Position numbers and translations under genes: made by a program. Shown piece by piece: positions 1 to 14,940 of a stretch of DNA of 21,256 bases (the stretch's first letter is position 1; every line of letters starts with the position of its first letter). The DNA comes from a virus: IMG/VR virus record IMGVR_UViG_3300033571_006106, positions 1 to 21,256 of that record; one strand, written 5' to 3'. The notes below the pieces were generated by a model. The model was not told where the DNA came from. It searched no databases and saw only the letters and a list, made by a program, of their open reading frames with translations.

Positions 1-3000
1 CAAGCTCAATATCAAAGTCAGTATTCTGTACTTGATAATCCTATTACTCTTAACCTAGAGCAGAATAAAAAAGTTGTAGGTAATGAAGTACTTAGAAAAC
101 TTACTAACCGGTTAGAAAGCAGTTTAGGTGTAAAGTCAAATATCATTACTGCAAATGATGCATTTACAATGCTTGCAGAATATGGTATTGAATATAGCAA
201 TGAGCCGGGATTTTTCTTCAATGGGGAAGTATACTTTATAGAAGATAAGGTTACTTCAGAGTTGATTCTTCATGAATTTTCTCACCCCCTGATTAAATCT
301 ATGCGGACAGCTAATCCTCAGCTGTTTGAAAAGTTATATGACCAACTAAAAGGCACACCAGAAGGTGATGCTATAATCCAATTAGTAAAAGATAGATACT
401 CAAATCAGTTCAAAGAAGGAACTGATGACTTCAAAGAAGAGGTTATTGTAAGAGCTCTTTCTGCAGCAGCTGATGCTGAATTTAATAATAAACCACAGTC
501 TACTGGTTTTATCGCATGGGTTAAAGAAATCCTGTATAATCTAAAACAGTTTTTCAGAAAACTATTCCCTGGAGAGAAGATCAAAATAGAATCTCTTTCT
601 ATTGATACTAGTCTTGAAGAGTTAGCACAAATGTTATTGTCTAAAGATTTTCAGATAAACACTGAAATAATATCATTAACTGATGTTGCTGAGTTTAGCA
701 AAGAAGTAAAAGATCAATTGCGGGCAGATATACAAAAGCTAAACAATGATATCACAAGACAAACAATATCTAACTTTACAAGAAGGACCAGAGCACAATT
801 AGAGAAAATTGATAATATAAATACCAAAGATCTTAAAGTAGTTCTAAAAGATAATTTAGGTAGATCAGACTTAGCTGAAATTCTAAACAGCTTAAAGCCA
901 TTCAATGTAGCTACAGAGCCTGTATTTACAAATCCTGTTGCAGAATTTAATTATATGCAACAGAGAGCGGAGGCAATGGTAAATGCTCTTTTGAGACTTG
1001 AAATGATTTCTGAAAGGATGCTAGAGCATTTTAAAAAACTAGCTAAAAATCCAACACCAGAAAATGTAGCTAAGGCATATTATTATACCAGTCTTATTAA
1101 AGAGTGGGAAGGATTTGCCACAGATTTCCGTAATCAAACAAGAAAAGAGCAAGATGCTGGAAATATAAATGCTAGTGATCCTATAGTAAAACTAGCTAAT
1201 ACCATACTTGAAAACTTTGCAAGAACTGAGCAATATAGAAATTCTATCCAAATGGCTGGTAGTGAAGAACTTTTGACTAATCAGCTACAGGGTATGATGA
1301 AAAATATTAATGACCACTATGAAAAACTTTTAGAGTACAAGACAAGGAAAGGTGCACCAGCAAGAGAAATAAACAGAATTAAGAAAGAAGCTGAGTTAGT
1401 TAAGCTTGACAATGAAAAGATCAAATCCTTATTAAGAGGAGATCTGGGTGATGCCCACCCCTTAAATAGCTGGTTTGAATCTTATATGTATAACCAAGAT
1501 CCTGTAATATTTGGATTTGCTCAGTATGTTACTGACAATTTTATGGATATGCATGCTGAGATACAAGAAGAGTTTAACAAATTCATAAATGAACTAGATC
1601 CTCTCCTTGATAAAGCTGGTTATAAGACTGCACTTGAGCGTCTTAAGATGGGTAAAGATATGTTAATGGAGGATGAGCGCAGAATTGATGCAGAGGGTAA
1701 TGACAAAAAAGTATTGACATTCATCACTCCATTTAAGGACTATATAAATAAGATTGAAAGACTTGAAAAGGCAGCAGCCTTAGCTAAAGATAAAGTTAAT
1801 AGAGAAAATACTGATGAATCCAAAGTAGAGCTTGCTGCAGCATTAAAAGCAGTCAGAGATGAAAGAAGTAATTTCTGGCATCAGCCGTTTACTGCAGCTT
1901 ACTATGAAAGATATAAGTTATTTGATAGTCCTATAGGACAATTAGCATATGCTAAACAACAAGAAATTCTATCAAAAATCCAAGGATTAAATACTTCCAT
2001 AACAGATTTTGAGGAGTTAAGCTTTATAAGGGAGCAGGAAGAATTATTCTGGAAAGAATATCAATTTCTTGCTAATGAAACTTATGAAGATGGTTCACCT
2101 AAAGTAGACTCACCAGATGATGGAGTATATGATCTATCTATTGCAAAGATACTTCAGCAGTTCAGAAATGAGACTAAAAAGTTTTATGAACCGAAAGAGA
2201 AGACAGGATTATTTAATACTGAGTATATAAAGTTTGTTCAATCATTAGAAGGCCTTGATCCAAACTCTAAGGAATATAATGATAAGATGAGAACTTTCTT
2301 AGAGAACAATACTATAGTTTCATTATCTGATGAGTACTATAACGACCTGAGTAAGATATTTGTAAGACTAAAAGCATTAGCAATATCTGAACAAGACAAA
2401 AAGATAGTTGCTCTGTATGAAGAAAGATCTGCTCTGTTGTCTGGTAATAGAGATGAGAATCGCCAGCCTATAGGTAACCAGATGAATATAAATGTTCTAA
2501 AAAGGCTTACTGAGATTGAAAAAGAAATCACAGCTTTGAGAAAAGCTAAGGTAGGCAGTAGCGGACTTACTGGTTATGAACTTGATACATACTTAGATCT
2601 TAAAGCTCAGGTAGAGGAGAACCAATATTATGGTGGTGAACCTTTATCTGATGATAATGCAAAACTATTCCTAGAACTAGATGCTAGATATCAAGCAGCT
2701 AAGGAAAAAGGATTATCTGATAATGATATAGAGATGCGTGAGGCTCTTTCTGATCTAAGTAATATGCAGAAGAGAGTATTATCATCTTACTACATTGATA
2801 CTATCAACGGCATGATAACTCCCCAAATGAGAGAAGTCATGAAAAATGAGTTGAACCTTACTGGATTTGATCAAAATAGCAATATTTTTCTAGAGAACTA
2901 TGACTTTATAACAAAACTAAAAGCCGTTAGTCCCGCTTTTGCAGCATGGCATGAGGCTAATCATACTCTAGTTGAGTACAAGTCCAAAGGACGGCAATAT

Positions 3001-5364
3001 AGAAGGTTTAAACCATCTTCAGCCTGGACATATACTGTACCTAAAAATCCAAAGCACTACAAATCAACAGTTATATATGATACCGATGGTACTACTATAA
3101 TAGATATTATACCACGAGTACCAAACAAATCATATTTTTACAGAGCTGTAAGAAAAGAAGTTGATGGTGTATCAATCATTACTCCAAGGATTACATATCT
3201 AGATTGTATCAAACAAGGTATTCCATTAGAGAATGCTACAATTGATATGAATGGTAACTTCTTACCAAGAGCTGATGTTGCAAATTCACCATATAAAAAT
3301 GAGAAGTATTATGAGCTGATGAAGGACAAAGACAAATACAATGTTCTTCTTGCTCTATTAAAAAATCATCTCTCATATCAACAGACATTACCGTATGACA
3401 GCCGTCTTGATATTGAATCACCAAGATTCCGTAAAGAGAACCTAGAAATTATTGCATCTAGAAGAGAAAAGGTAAATCCTATTGTATCCTGGATTAAAAA
3501 CTTAAGATCATACTTTGCATCAGCACCGGATGATCTTGAAGATAATCTAAATCCATCACAGGAATTAATGGTAGTAAATGCCGACCTGTATGATACAGAT
3601 TATACTAAGATTCCTATTAATGGTATCTATGATTTGGAGATAGTTGAAACTTCTGAAGATGTCCTGCGTGGTATAATGCGCTATATGCAGTCTGCTAAGA
3701 GACAAAAGAAACTACTTGAAATTCTACCATATGCCAAAGCTATTCAGAGTGTAGTTAATAATCCTGATAACAGACCTAATGTTATTGGTGCTACTATGAC
3801 AAACATGAAGAGTAGCATGCTTAATGCAGCAAGTAGATATATTCCCATAAACAAAGAACACAAAAGTGTTAGAGCTGCAGCAATTAATGCCTTCATAGAA
3901 AGAGAATTTGAAGGTAAAACTCAGGCCGGTATGTTGGCTCAATATACTCCTGTACAGAAAGTTGCTGATAGCCTTATGAAAATATCATCATTTGCATTCT
4001 TTGCATTTAATATTCCAAGTGCATTGAAAAATGCCTGGGGTGCTAGATTCCAAAGTATGATTGAGGCAACCGCAGGAAAGTACTTTGGCTGGCAAGATTA
4101 TACTGTAGGGTCAGCATGGGCAAGTAAAGTTACTGCAGAAATATCATTCCAGATATATAAGAAAGAATCAAGATCTGTTGATGTTCAGCTAGTAGAATTA
4201 ATGGACCCAAGCCAAGGTAGATTTACTCAAAGTATCCGTGAAGGTGTTGGGACTACAAGATCTGCTCTTACAGACTTAACTGATTCATTTAAGTATGGTA
4301 CTAATATCCGTAAGTGGACTGAATTAAATGCTACTCTATCTGTATTTGGTGCCATGCTTAAGAATACTAAAATAAAAAGGACTCTTAGTAATGGTCAAGA
4401 ACAAACAATCACATATGACCAAGCTTGGGAAGTAGTTGATGGTGTGATTCAACTAAAAGATGGTATTGACAAAAAGTGGGATAAGGGTGGTTCAGAATAC
4501 AAAAACTTTGTAAGAAAAACTAAAGGAGTAATAAACAACCTGAATGGTGCCTTCTCTACATTTGACCAACCAGGTGCAGGAAGATGGTTATTGTATCGTT
4601 TTGTAATGTATATCAAATCATACTTTACAAGGATGTTCATGCACAGGTTCCAAACTAAAATTAAAGGTAACTTCTTTACAGGTCAATACTTACCAAGATA
4701 TGATGCATATACAAATGATATAGCACTAGGTTTTTATCTAGAAGGTATAAGAGCTTTGTTTGATATCATTAAGAGTAAAGGAGCCGGTATTAAATCAATG
4801 CATCCTGATGAGTTGAGATCTCTTAGAAGAATGATAGGTGAGGTAGGACTTCTTACAATTCTTAATATGGTTATCATCAATTTGCTCTTTGGATTTGATG
4901 AAGACGATGATGATAGATATGAAAAATTAAGAGCTAAGAGTGGTTCACTACCATTACCTTTTGTTACTCCAGATCCAGATAGACCATTTCAAGCGGGAGG
5001 TTATTTATCTAATCATTTACTGAGTCTTATTTTACAGATAAGATCAGAAAATGAAGCATGGATGCCATTACCAAACATGGGATTAGACGAGTATACAGGT
5101 ATACTTACAATGGAAGCTGTTCCAATGGCAGCTACAGTTACTAAGTATGTTGACTTACTAGACAAATCATGGGATGCTCTTCAAGGAGATAAAAGCGCTT
5201 ACTATCAAAGAGATGTTGGTCCATATGATTGGCAGAAAGCTGAATCACTGAAGATGATGAACTATGCACTTAAGAGTATAGGTGTTACTGGTAAAATTGT
5301 TGATCCAGTTCTACAAGCAGAAACAACAATTAAACTACGTAATGCAGATATATTAGGTAATTAA
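1..5364 (+). CDS. Giant virion/ejected-type protein with zinc-peptidase motif (5' end outside window)
   Basis: The reading frame is open from base 1, so the true start lies upstream and the ATG at 169 is internal; 1,787 residues are visible. Near the left end there is an HEFSH zinc-binding motif (bases 271-285), followed about 50 residues later by acidic residues in a helix (FKEEVIVRAL, about 430-459). This is the layout of a gluzincin-like metallopeptidase. The middle is long, charged and helical, with coiled-coil character. The C-terminal part has two hydrophobic stretches, about 3985-4035 and 4840-4890, the second followed by a run of acidic residues. In crAss-like and other podovirus-type phages, very large proteins of this kind are packaged in the capsid and ejected with the DNA, and carry assorted enzymatic domains. 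Placement here as such a cargo protein is inferred. Protease activity is unproven. Confidence 0.75.
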   Translation, partial: QAQYQSQYSVLDNPITLNLEQNKKVVGNEVLRKLTNRLESSLGVKSNIITANDAFTMLAEYGIEYSNEPGFFFNGEVYFIEDKVTSELILHEFSHPLIKSMRTANPQLFEKLYDQLKGTPEGDAIIQLVKDRYSNQFKEGTDDFKEEVIVRALSAAADAEFNNKPQSTGFIAWVKEILYNLKQFFRKLFPGEKIKIESLSIDTSLEELAQMLLSKDFQINTEIISLTDVAEFSKEVKDQLRADIQKLNNDITRQTISNFTRRTRAQLEKIDNINTKDLKVVLKDNLGRSDLAEILNSLKPFNVATEPVFTNPVAEFNYMQQRAEAMVNALLRLEMISERMLEHFKKLAKNPTPENVAKAYYYTSLIKEWEGFATDFRNQTRKEQDAGNINASDPIVKLANTILENFARTEQYRNSIQMAGSEELLTNQLQGMMKNINDHYEKLLEYKTRKGAPAREINRIKKEAELVKLDNEKIKSLLRGDLGDAHPLNSWFESYMYNQDPVIFGFAQYVTDNFMDMHAEIQEEFNKFINELDPLLDKAGYKTALERLKMGKDMLMEDERRIDAEGNDKKVLTFITPFKDYINKIERLEKAAALAKDKVNRENTDESKVELAAALKAVRDERSNFWHQPFTAAYYERYKLFDSPIGQLAYAKQQEILSKIQGLNTSITDFEELSFIREQEELFWKEYQFLANETYEDGSPKVDSPDDGVYDLSIAKILQQFRNETKKFYEPKEKTGLFNTEYIKFVQSLEGLDPNSKEYNDKMRTFLENNTIVSLSDEYYNDLSKIFVRLKALAISEQDKKIVALYEERSALLSGNRDENRQPIGNQMNINVLKRLTEIEKEITALRKAKVGSSGLTGYELDTYLDLKAQVEENQYYGGEPLSDDNAKLFLELDARYQAAKEKGLSDNDIEMREALSDLSNMQKRVLSSYYIDTINGMITPQMREVMKNELNLTGFDQNSNIFLENYDFITKLKAVSPAFAAWHEANHTLVEYKSKGRQYRRFKPSSAWTYTVPKNPKHYKSTVIYDTDGTTIIDIIPRVPNKSYFYRAVRKEVDGVSIITPRITYLDCIKQGIPLENATIDMNGNFLPRADVANSPYKNEKYYELMKDKDKYNVLLALLKNHLSYQQTLPYDSRLDIESPRFRKENLEIIASRREKVNPIVSWIKNLRSYFASAPDDLEDNLNPSQELMVVNADLYDTDYTKIPINGIYDLEIVETSEDVLRGIMRYMQSAKRQKKLLEILPYAKAIQSVVNNPDNRPNVIGATMTNMKSSMLNAASRYIPINKEHKSVRAAAINAFIEREFEGKTQAGMLAQYTPVQKVADSLMKISSFAFFAFNIPSALKNAWGARFQSMIEATAGKYFGWQDYTVGSAWASKVTAEISFQIYKKESRSVDVQLVELMDPSQGRFTQSIREGVGTTRSALTDLTDSFKYGTNIRKWTELNATLSVFGAMLKNTKIKRTLSNGQEQTITYDQAWEVVDGVIQLKDGIDKKWDKGGSEYKNFVRKTKGVINNLNGAFSTFDQPGAGRWLLYRFVMYIKSYFTRMFMHRFQTKIKGNFFTGQYLPRYDAYTNDIALGFYLEGIRALFDIIKSKGAGIKSMHPDELRSLRRMIGEVGLLTILNMVIINLLFGFDEDDDDRYEKLRAKSGSLPLPFVTPDPDRPFQAGGYLSNHLLSLILQIRSENEAWMPLPNMGLDEYTGILTMEAVPMAATVTKYVDLLDKSWDALQGDKSAYYQRDVGPYDWQKAESLKMMNYALKSIGVTGKIVDPVLQAETTIKLRNADILGN

Positions 5365-11558: not shown

Positions 11559-13763
11559 TTATTTTACTACCATTTTAACAATTTCAGGATTAAGCATAAG
11601 CTTCTGAAATTTAACTTTGTTAGAATTTACAATATTCCTAATCATGAAATACTTAAGATCATTAGTGAACAGAGTTTCATCTAGTGTCAGATCTGTTAAT
11701 CTTTGAAGTATTTCTGGTGTTACTGCATGCTTTTGAGAATAATTAACAGTATAGTTTACTATACGGGTTGCCAGTAGGCTAGCAAGATCAGCCCTATAAG
11801 AATCACCTTCTCCAAAGGTAGATCTTAGTACACCTTTGACATATTCCCAAGAAGAATTCTCAATGATATCTTTTGGAGAAATGATCTTGTCAAGTTTATT
11901 GGCAATAAACATACTAAAGGTTGTACTGAACTCAGGACCTACAGAACCCTCACCAATCATCTGAATCATTGGAAGACTGTCTTCAAACTTTTCAAAAGAA
12001 CTGATGGAATTAAAGAATGTAGTAATACCACGAGCATTGATGTTTTCTGTAACTAACTCCGGATGCATAATCAAAAAGTTAATACAACGAGAGTCAATTT
12101 CAACAGACTCAGCCCACTTAGCCCAGCAATCTATATCAAACTTTAGATTTGCTGTAATAAAGCGAGTTCTTTGAGCTGTGTCAATAGAGTTTACAAGATA
12201 GTCACCATTATCAGGATTAGATGTTAGAATTACATGCCAATCCTTTGGAAGCTTCCATGAGATATATTCTTGCCTATCAATAAGTTCCATGATAGCCTGA
12301 ACAAATCTCAAATCAGCACGGGTCCAGTCATCAAGTATAAGTAAGCCACCTTCCGTTGCACCCTGTATCCATTCTGGAGCAGCATGTGACATTCTCTTCT
12401 CACCAGTTGGTCTATATCTATTTGCAATATATGAAGCCATAACAGATTCAGGTATCCATCTAGTCTCTGTTTTACCATCTTCTGTTTTAACTACCTCATG
12501 TTCTTTGATAGGAAAACCAACAAGGTCACCTATCTCCTCAAGCTGAGCCAAGTTCAATTTTATAAACTTAAGACCCATCTCTTTTGCCAATTGTAATATG
12601 GCACTTGTTTTACCTCAATTTGTTATCGTATAGGCTCTTTATCCTATACCTCTGCATCTTCATATTATACATGCAGTTCAGACTATATCATCACTATTTC
12701 TAGTGTCGCGCGCTCGTGGGGTTTTACTGTCTGTTCTAGACTCCATACCCTAGTCGTTGCACCTTCTATCTATTCCTAGATAGCTTGGCTCAGGATTGTC
12801 CACGCCAGTGGAGTTTCCCTGAATTCACGCGATTTTTACCCTGGGACTTGGTAAAATTCATATCGTAAACCATTGTAAAAAGTGCCCTTTGTGATTCTCA
12901 TAGAACATGCTGATTGTGAAAGATTTAAGCTTTTAGCTAGAGCTTTTATACTTATCCAGGTATCTTTTACATTACCAAAGATATCTACTGATCTAACTGT
13001 TTTATTCTGCTCTACTCTTTTAATCAGTTTGTTCGTTTTAGTGTATGACCATATAAATCCACAAGATGAGTTAGCTTTTCCAGAAGCGGCTTTTGATATA
13101 CCGTGCATTGGAATACCCAATGCTCTACTAGCTTCTGAACAAGATTCATATTGATCAATAAATATACCTTCTGGGGTATATCTATATACAGGTTTTGAAC
13201 CACTTCGTTTGATTCTTCCAGTTTTAAATCCTTCTCGTAATGTATTAGAGATCTTTTGTCTTGACTCTATACAAAATATTCTTTTTGAAGGATTTAAATC
13301 AAGGTTTAAATCGGGACTTAAAATATCTATATAATGAGACTCCTTATCTATAAGATATTGAGAATCACATAATTCTATGATTTTAAAGAGAAATTTCTCT
13401 TTACCATACTTATTAAAGACATTTTGCATATATCTGTTTGAGTGTTTGTTTCTCAACAGGTCTGATGTATGCCTTTTGAGTCTGTAGTAGATATTAATAC
13501 TACTTCCTATATAGGTATGATTATTACATATAATCATATAGATACCTGATTTTTTACTTAGATTTTTATGTAGACAATCTTTGAATAACTCTTTCATGTC
13601 TACAAGATACAAATTATTTTGAATTAATCCCAGCTTCACCTTCAATATTTACAGCTACCGGATTCTTACCTGATGTTTGCAGATAACGATTGTTATTAAT
13701 AATATGTGATAGAAAATCTTTTAACTCAGTGGTATTAAGACTGATTTGTGTTGCCTTTTTCAT
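11559..13763 (-). CDS. MoxR-type AAA+ ATPase, split by a group I intron (exons 13763-13627 and 12615-11559)
   Basis: The gene has two exons: 13763-13627 (137 nt) and 12615-11559 (1,057 nt). Joined, they encode 397 residues in frame. Exon 1 ends GAAGCTGGGAT and exon 2 begins AGGTAAAACA, which rebuilds the Walker A P-loop GEAGIGKTS (42-50) across the junction. Walker B LLILDD (about 137-142), sensor 1 LTSNP (176-180) and a likely arginine finger in AQRTRF (193-198) follow; this order fits a MoxR-like AAA+ ATPase. MoxR proteins work with VWA partners as metal-insertion or remodelling chaperones, and a VWA gene ends one base before this ATG. Without splicing, translation stops after 49 residues (INSK, then TAA). 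Exon 2 alone lacks the P-loop, so activity should depend on splicing. Confidence 0.9.
12836..13597 (-). CDS. GIY-YIG homing endonuclease encoded in the intron
   Basis: The 253-aa protein from ATG 13597 has an N-terminal GIY-YIG nuclease domain: GIYMI (18-22), TYIGS (28-32), Arg39 in YYRLKRH, and Glu86 in DKESHYID. It is followed by a NUMOD3-like segment (SRQKISNTLREG, 112-123) and two NUMOD1-like DNA-binding repeats (about 137-184 and 203-248). Such enzymes cut intron-less copies of the host gene and so spread the intron. The frame can be extended upstream to a TTG at 13645 in exon 1, but the ATG lies within the intron, just before the domain. The stop of unspliced exon 1 (13616-13614) is 16 bases upstream of the ATG, so re-initiation on unspliced RNA is plausible. 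Its 3' end overlaps the intron's guide sequence. Confidence 0.92.
   Translation of the reverse strand: MKELFKDCLHKNLSKKSGIYMIICNNHTYIGSSINIYYRLKRHTSDLLRNKHSNRYMQNVFNKYGKEKFLFKIIELCDSQYLIDKESHYIDILSPDLNLDLNPSKRIFCIESRQKISNTLREGFKTGRIKRSGSKPVYRYTPEGIFIDQYESCSEASRALGIPMHGISKAASGKANSSCGFIWSYTKTNKLIKRVEQNKTVRSVDIFGNVKDTWISIKALAKSLNLSQSACSMRITKGTFYNGLRYEFYQVPG
12841..12847 (-). other. Internal guide sequence of the intron (P1)
   Basis: On the - strand GTCCCAG is complementary to the last seven bases of exon 1 (CTGGGAT), with the conserved U-G wobble at the cleavage site. The guide lies in the last sense codons of the endonuclease gene (Val-Pro-Gly-stop), so one stretch serves both as protein code and as splice-site recognition. 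This pairing decides the exact 5' splice site at 13627/13626. Confidence 0.9.
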
Positions 13764-13764
13764 T

Positions 13765-14940
13765 TTAGTTTAATTTGATTTGTTGACCTGGAAGTTCTGG
13801 ATTTAGATTTGAAACTGATGATAGCACCCATAGCATTTTACCTTTTGGTTTATTTGGAGCAGGTGCCTCACCATCTGTCAAATACACAAGACTTGTGTAT
13901 TTCTTTTTATTTGCATCATAATAGTCTATTACGGGATCAAATGAAGTTCCACCCCTTCCGTTAATCTCAATTTGAGTACCGGATTTTTTATACGGTTTGA
14001 TACTTTTAATAGCAGTATCACATTGAATTACAGTTACTTCTGAACCTGTCTTAAATATATGATCTATCTCATGAAAAAAATCTACTAACTCATCATCACT
14101 AACAGAGCCAGAGACATCTACAGCAACTAGAATATGTTTCTTTTGTTTGATCTTTAATCCGGGATTAGCAGTAAATCTTTTGTTTTCTTTTCTTCTTAAT
14201 TTCTTAGTATAGACTTTCATTGAGCTACCTGCAAATCTTCTGAGATAACCACGCCAATCAAACTTTGGTGGTTCTGAGAAATCTAGAGCATCCAGTATTG
14301 ATTTAATTTCACCTGGAACGGTTCCCCTAGATTTTTGAATCTGCTCAGCAATATTTTTCATAGTGTGAGCAGCCTGTGATTGCATTAGTTTCTTTTCAGA
14401 TTCACCAAGCTCATCAAACTCTGACCAGTCATGATGAGGATTCATAAGACCATCTGAAGATTTGTCTTCATCCTTATTCATTGCACTTAGCAAATTCTGA
14501 AGAGTAGGATTATCTTTATTTGCACTAAGAATTTCATAATACTTTCTTGTACCTGCCTTATACGGCAAGTCTATACCTGGAAATGAATTCAATTGAATTG
14601 CACCATCAGGTAAGTACTCTCCACTGATATATTGATTAACTTCAATGTCAGCAGCAATGTTGAACAACTTCTTATCTGCATATTCATCGCTCATAAATAT
14701 ATGAGCAAAACAAATATGAAGAGTTTCATGTTTCAATAAACCAAGCCTATGATCTTCAGATAATTTAGACCAGAAGTCTTCATTAATTATCAACTCTTGA
14801 TTTATTCCGTTCTTACCTACAGCAGCAGTAGGTACTGATTTACTCCATCTCTTATTAAGAGAAACTAAAAAGAGCCCGTAATAGGACTCTTTTAGTATAA
14901 GGTTTTTAATAACCTTAGATAATGATTCTTGTTTTGTCAT
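13765..14940 (-). CDS. VWA-domain protein with N-terminal metallopeptidase-like domain (DUF2201 type)
   Basis: A 391-aa protein. The N-terminal domain has LLKHETLHICFAHIF: HETLH at 71-75 plus His80, a zinc-peptidase-like HExxHxxxxH, followed by NIAADIEVNQ (94-103), as in DUF2201-type proteins. The C-terminal VWA domain (about 268-391) has a complete MIDAS metal site: DVSGS (275-279), GGTSFDP (T332) and TDGE (D356). In bacteria, such proteins are paired with MoxR ATPases. Here the ATPase ATG follows this stop after one base, and the order is the same. The start overlaps the RuvC-like stop as ATGA. Whether the peptidase motif is catalytic or structural is unknown. The function in the phage is inferred to be protein remodelling. 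Confidence 0.88.
   Translation of the reverse strand: MTKQESLSKVIKNLILKESYYGLFLVSLNKRWSKSVPTAAVGKNGINQELIINEDFWSKLSEDHRLGLLKHETLHICFAHIFMSDEYADKKLFNIAADIEVNQYISGEYLPDGAIQLNSFPGIDLPYKAGTRKYYEILSANKDNPTLQNLLSAMNKDEDKSSDGLMNPHHDWSEFDELGESEKKLMQSQAAHTMKNIAEQIQKSRGTVPGEIKSILDALDFSEPPKFDWRGYLRRFAGSSMKVYTKKLRRKENKRFTANPGLKIKQKKHILVAVDVSGSVSDDELVDFFHEIDHIFKTGSEVTVIQCDTAIKSIKPYKKSGTQIEINGRGGTSFDPVIDYYDANKKKYTSLVYLTDGEAPAPNKPKGKMLWVLSSVSNLNPELPGQQIKLN

Follow-up and report, generated by a model that had tools for sequence, protein, structure and literature searches.

The ATPase gene on a 21,256-base viral fragment (hereafter the window) is interrupted within the codons of its nucleotide-binding P-loop, which raises the question of what the interrupting element is, how it came to lie there, and whether it regulates the gene or is simply a mobile passenger. 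We find that positions 12616-13626 are a group I intron, predicted to be self-splicing, and we consider it highly probable that this is a mobile, endonuclease-bearing intron, probably mosaic, lodged among the Walker A codons of an AAA+/MoxR-like ATPase gene of a phage, with splicing in vivo and endonuclease cleavage inferred.

The divided ATPase gene and its intron

The minus-strand ATPase gene (Table 1) encodes 397 amino acids when its two exons are joined. The join is in frame and restores GEAGIGKTS, as the original prediction had it with coordinates exact to the base, and it places the insertion point within codon 46 (AT/A), just 5' of the Gly-Lys-Thr of Walker A. The predicted spliced junction is ...GGGAU/AGGUAAAA, and exon 2 is open over 351 codons. 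An unspliced message cannot encode Walker A, its reading frame meeting an in-frame TAA at intron positions 11-13. The product is an AAA+ ATPase: GKT, the LDD-type acidic residues of Walker B, and TxNP are invariant among 20 relatives, and an AlphaFold model of the uninterrupted relative L003 (pLDDT 84.7) shows the AAA+ fold, with Z scores of 12-13.5 to AAA+ chains. Among the best of these solved chains are NorQ (Z 12.9) and CbbQ (Z 12.3), both of them MoxR proteins, tied with RFC (clamp loader) and dynein; the Pfam models AAA_5 and AAA_3 match 19/20 and 14/20 of the relatives, in all cases weakly. Based on these weak matches, the presence of NorQ and CbbQ among the best though tied chains, and the metallopeptidase-vWA gene directly upstream, the protein is likely "MoxR-like"; as to the initial assignment to the MoxR type, the AAA+ protein and its partner fit a MoxR pair, but scores to MoxR-subfamily Pfam models are low. 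A nucleotide search of named phages with the locus gave no match, and the ATPase is only 22–28% similar to proteins of named phages. The upstream gene strongly matches phrog_1314, which PHROGs labels "HNH endonuclease"; this label looks wrong, as Pfam shows metallopeptidase and vWA domains there. On the opposite strand, positions 1-5364 of the window hold a 1,787-aa open frame that is cut by the contig end, contains an HEFSH protease-like motif, and has no PHROG match.

The covariance search proposed with the original prediction returns a match to the Rfam group I intron model (RF00028, Intron_gpI) at 12890-12658 (-), over the full model length and above the gathering score of 50 bits (75.2 bits, E 9e-18), and the predicted intron boundaries are right to the base. 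All core helices from P3 to P9 had been thought drawable, and the minimum-energy fold of the core indeed contains P3, P4, P5, P6/P6a, P7.1, P7.2, P8, P9, and P9.1, and none of 200 shuffled sequences is equally stable (z -4.1); P7 (GACUA/UAGUC) is the expected pseudoknot. In an alignment of 15 related cores, built by MAFFT without a structure reference and read against a structure drawn on the window intron itself, 93% of cells are paired and double changes occur in 29 of the 40 pairs, a result matched by 0/500 shuffles; P7 is invariant across these cores and hence outside the reach of covariation. P7.1 and P7.2 (GGGU..ACCC and GUCU..AGAC) are located between P7 and P3 in the minimum-energy fold, an arrangement that is the mark of subgroup IA, and we designate the intron IA-like by this rule.

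The predicted splice sites are fixed by comparison with relatives. The proposed pairing of exon CTGGGAT with intron GTCCCAG is confirmed as P1, with the guide at 12847-12841 and the canonical U.G at the splice site, and the 3' end of the intron is the omega-G at 12616. In the two same-site introns of L249 and L276, exon 1 ends in CUGGGCU in place of CUGGGAU and the guide reads GGUCCAG in place of GUCCCAG, so that an A-U pair of P1 becomes C-G. Likewise in P10, exon 2 of the window opens with A-GGUAAAA, facing the intron strand UUUUACC, whereas that of L085/L092 opens with A-GGCAAAA and faces UUUUGCC. These P1 and P10 differences are compensating exon-intron changes. The guide is also coding sequence: the endonuclease frame reads it as Val-Pro-Gly before its stop codon (GUC CCA GGG UAA; stop 12838-12836). 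Within 12856-12833, a GGUAAAA segment just past the guide could pair with the P10 strand in place of exon 2, placing the guide inside a hairpin that competes with P1/P10; we rejected this arrangement as a switch because the same joining segment is A-rich in related introns, which makes chance likely.

The endonuclease frame is open and exceeds the Pfam cut-offs for both of its domains (PF01541, 39.4 bits against 22.6; NUMOD1, 38.0 against 22.8). Comparison with the L085 endonuclease gives dN 0.215, dS 1.85, and dN/dS ~0.12 (Nei-Gojobori), a rough ratio with dS near saturation; the gene is thus maintained by purifying selection. Most of its best matches in named phages are endonucleases from crAss-like/Bacteroides and Flavobacterium phages, and no match was found in bacterial or archaeal genomes. 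The original prediction had suggested homing into a conserved target and had not named this gene; its presence and the selection on it bear the suggestion out.

Table 1. Features of the ATPase locus (window coordinates)
Feature	Positions	Strand	Basis
Exon 2 of ATPase, from GKT on, with Walker B LLILDD; D147/L148 (second-intron site of relatives) intact	11559..12615	-	In-frame join; relatives
Group I intron, 1011 nt, IA-like	12616..13626	-	Rfam 75.2 bits; same-site introns in L085/L092, L249, L276
P9.1-type hairpin with GGAUAAAGAGCC	12628..12649	-	Fold; kept in Walker-A and Walker-B site introns
Catalytic core P3-P9 (P7 12755-12751 with 12685-12681)	12652..12832	-	Rfam, fold, covariation
Homing endonuclease gene in P1 loop, 253 aa, GIY-YIG + NUMOD1	12836..13597	-	PF01541 E 8e-10, PF07453 E 2e-9
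Internal guide sequence GUCCCAG (P1)	12841..12847	-	Sequence; counterpart in L249/L276
Intron strand of P10, UUUUACC, facing GGUAAAA of exon 2 (12614-12608)	12850..12856	-	Sequence; L085/L092 counterpart UUUUGCC/GGCAAAA
Intron 5' leader TAATTCAAAATAA, holds in-frame stop	13614..13626	-	Common to all Walker-A-site introns of ATPase gene
Exon 1 of MoxR-like AAA+ ATPase (codons 1-46, the last one split AT/A)	13627..13763	-	In-frame join with exon 2; relatives unbroken across join
Metallopeptidase (DUF2201_N)-vWA (DUF2201) fusion gene, directly upstream of ATPase	13765..14940	-	Pfam E 4e-17 and 9e-18

Empty sites and the case for a mobile intron

As a rule, relatives lack the intron. With the spliced protein as query, we retrieved 80 viral loci of 55–68% identity, every one unbroken at the join, where they read G[ED][AS]G[IL]GKTS or a near variant; with the exon-2 product of L092 as query, 78 of 80 loci are continuous, the other two being the carriers themselves. 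With most relatives intronless, the intron is dispensable. The original prediction had named intronless relatives without the join as evidence against it; the join is present throughout the 80, which favors the prediction. At the identical position, introns occur in three further lineages (L085/L092, L249, and L276); that of L085/L092 is homologous and inserted at the same nucleotide, with an ATPase exon 2 ~67–69% identical and endonucleases 71% identical to those of the window. In the exon tree the window ATPase groups with those of the intronless L003, L005, and L023, and L085/L092 fall elsewhere; a single clade of the window and L085/L092 ATPases is not rejected (p 0.12), and horizontal movement of the intron is accordingly possible and not proved. 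Both homing between lineages and loss from intron-bearing ancestors are possible. Group I introns match in 2 of 50 kin records, which were chosen by high scores of the unbroken gene so that carriers are under-represented; we considered and dropped the description of this phage group as intron-infested on the basis of this count in such a sample. A separate observation concerns L085 (11087-11144) and L092 (7237-7294), which differ at eight positions in these segments and are otherwise identical over 8,044 shared bases. All eight differences are synonymous by reading and lie 11-68 nt past the start of the GKT codons, just 3' of the 3' splice site of the intron; they are possibly a homing-site conversion tract and possibly mixed strains in the assembly.

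In the mechanism that we propose, the exon end CUGGGAU of the pre-mRNA would pair with the guide GUCCCAG, guanosine would attack after the U of CUGGGAU, and exon 2 would be held by the 7-bp P10 for ligation at AU/A, giving GEAGIGKTS. Intronless alleles are presumably the target of the GIY-YIG endonuclease, which would cut them in the conserved P-loop DNA, with repair copying the intron in. The original prediction went further and placed "the remodelling machine" under splicing control. An intron co-opted to time ATPase production would be in keeping with an unspliced message that cannot encode Walker A and with a leader that supplies an in-frame stop, but any intron in a needed gene would block the unspliced product likewise; most relatives are intronless, the intron carries a selected homing gene, and we see neither a conditional element nor any other sign of regulated splicing, so that we consider this reading very improbable and do not retain it. 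There is equally little reason to favor a decayed intron, with the endonuclease or ribozyme inactive and the ATPase gene broken: the endonuclease frame is open and has the low dN/dS given above, the core helices are intact, and exon 2 is open throughout. A mobile intron explains all of these features without a regulatory role.

A further intron site past Walker B and the probable mosaic make-up of the window intron

The introns that most resemble the window core are found in this ATPase gene as well, just past Walker B (LLDDYTRAD/HRFMQAT, after D147 in window numbering), where 24 contigs have a gap. In L249 and L276 both sites are occupied, and each of these four introns scores above the Rfam gathering threshold. 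In some Walker-B introns (L249 and L262) the endonuclease ORF also runs through its guide (GGT CCG CAA TAA). The two halves of the window intron differ in their affinities. Its 5' half (leader, endonuclease, and guide) is 60–61% identical, nearly gap-free, to the Walker-A introns of L249 and L276, reaching 77% in the leader for L249, and 52% identical to Walker-B introns, for which the shuffled level is 46–48%. Its core and tail are 56–64% identical to the same Walker-A introns (64% for L249) and 84–87% identical to Walker-B introns. A cleaned core tree places the window and L085 inside the Walker-B introns (99/98), and the cores of L249 and L276, which have a different P4 type (UUGCUGG vs UUCAGG), group elsewhere (96/99); the hypothesis that all Walker-A cores belong to one clade is rejected with AU p-values of 0.035 and 0.027, which are modest and come from a short alignment of about 160 columns. 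The endonuclease tree unites the four Walker-A proteins (99/97) but is not decisive: with fewer outgroups, SH-aLRT support for their clade drops to 80, and the test does not reject a rival grouping (p 0.49).

We conclude from these comparisons that the window intron is probably mosaic, with a 5' targeting half near that of Walker-A introns and a catalytic half near that of Walker-B introns. The best reading, which we think fairly likely, is that the catalytic core was exchanged, in one direction or the other, at the GGGTAA junction. The 5' targeting half would have stayed at the Walker A site and been combined with a 3' catalytic half that is also found in Walker-B-site introns of related phages. 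A history without core exchange in the window lineage is the less likely one: a single Walker-A lineage would exist in which L249 and L276 are the odd members, their core fast-evolving or replaced, and the likeness of the window and Walker-B cores would date from an old copy between the sites. The alternative endonuclease topology that is not rejected would suit this history, as would replaced cores in L249 and L276, in which case the window intron would have the older arrangement. However, a core 84–87% identical to Walker-B introns, together with an endonuclease half whose identity is close to that of shuffled sequence, requires either exchange or very unequal rates, and the different P4 type and separate grouping of the L249 and L276 cores imply at least one core replacement in most readings. 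Returning to core exchange, we tentatively posit an element of two cartridges, in which endonuclease and guide make up one 5' targeting cassette and the core can be swapped; in this way a core also found in Walker-B introns could be joined to Walker-A targeting of the same gene; Walker A codons, which are common to unrelated phage ATPases, might then be a general landing zone. Since the guide is itself part of the endonuclease ORF, DNA and RNA targeting would travel together. We also observe that the two-site carriers L249 and L276 have dissimilar cores (63% in L249) and that Walker-A-only carriers have a core of Walker-B type; similar cores within one gene may be selected against (two cases each).

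Walker A codons in other phage genes and comparable known systems

We scanned viral contigs for an IA-type P7 followed, 65-95 nt on, by GGNAARWS, with the codon-swapped AARGGNWS as control, and found 101 and 65 contigs, respectively. After removal of redundancy, the frame continues open for GK[ST] in 34/62 cases and for the control in 10/52, which argues for recurrence of introns at Walker A. PHROG profiles put most of 20 exon-2 products at a fixed column per family; besides terminase large subunit, DnaB-like helicase, and primase-helicase, the families include two more of helicases. When exons are joined on a plausible guide, full P-loops result, for example in L106 (GARPGVGKT), L142 (AGNRVGKS), L162 (GAGVKMGKS), and L177 (GGRPGSGKT), where a recognisable P-loop was chosen by eye among scored candidates and single cases are tentative. 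Rfam group I cores score above gathering in L126, L129, L140, L142, and L159 and below it in L162 and L108; L106, L119, L123, and L177 have no Rfam group I match at E 0.01. Since their guides and insertion phases differ, these introns look like independent insertions. Among 66 introns sampled regardless of site, a sample dominated by window-like introns, many of them in this ATPase gene, an open GK[ST] lies at the junction in three, one of which is not Walker A (control intervals, 0-2). With two Walker A cases, we dropped the idea that this target is strongly enriched; Walker A is shown to be a recurrent landing site, for which we claim no enrichment factor. A limited literature search found no paper on group I introns in phage P-loops. 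L140 has two group I intron matches (2648-2862 and 3224-3440) within or next to a single terminase gene; the former precedes the GKS of Walker A.

The T4 td intron with I-TevI is a phage group I intron with a homing endonuclease. In Bastillevirinae, the genes with reported introns encode polymerase, TerL, thymidylate synthase, and ribonucleotide reductase (PMC11878797), and group I introns with homing endonucleases in phage genes have been reviewed (PMC3984707). The window intron shares with the T4 td and Bastillevirinae introns a P7.1/P7.2 core, an internal homing endonuclease gene, and a conserved target gene, and differs from them in its AAA+/MoxR-like host gene and in an endonuclease gene that lies in the P1 loop with its last codons serving as guide. 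CrAss-like phages have group I introns in core genes, including the AAA domain ATPase ATP_43b (PMC7886860), in which they resemble the window, although among the kin of the window matches are limited to the 2/50 records noted above. The inteins TerL1-a/b of mycobacteriophages lodge in the P-loop (PMC5050341) and are likewise mobile elements in the Walker A of a phage ATPase, whereas the window element is predicted to be removed from RNA by a ribozyme and not from protein. In jumbo phages, a pair of MoxR AAA+ and metallopeptidase-vWA proteins has a proposed role in virion assembly (PMC7824862); the window likewise has adjoining AAA+ ATPase and metallopeptidase-vWA genes, but an intron interrupts the former.

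Three features make this locus worth a specialist's attention: two intron sites in a single gene, a guide formed by the last codons of the endonuclease, and the probable core exchange. The P-loop preference known for inteins is seen here at the RNA level, and the overlap of the guide with the endonuclease stop codon predicts joint inheritance of both specificities. As a natural series of empty sites, four same-site lineages, and a second site in the same gene, the locus bears on how a mobile ribozyme gains a new target.
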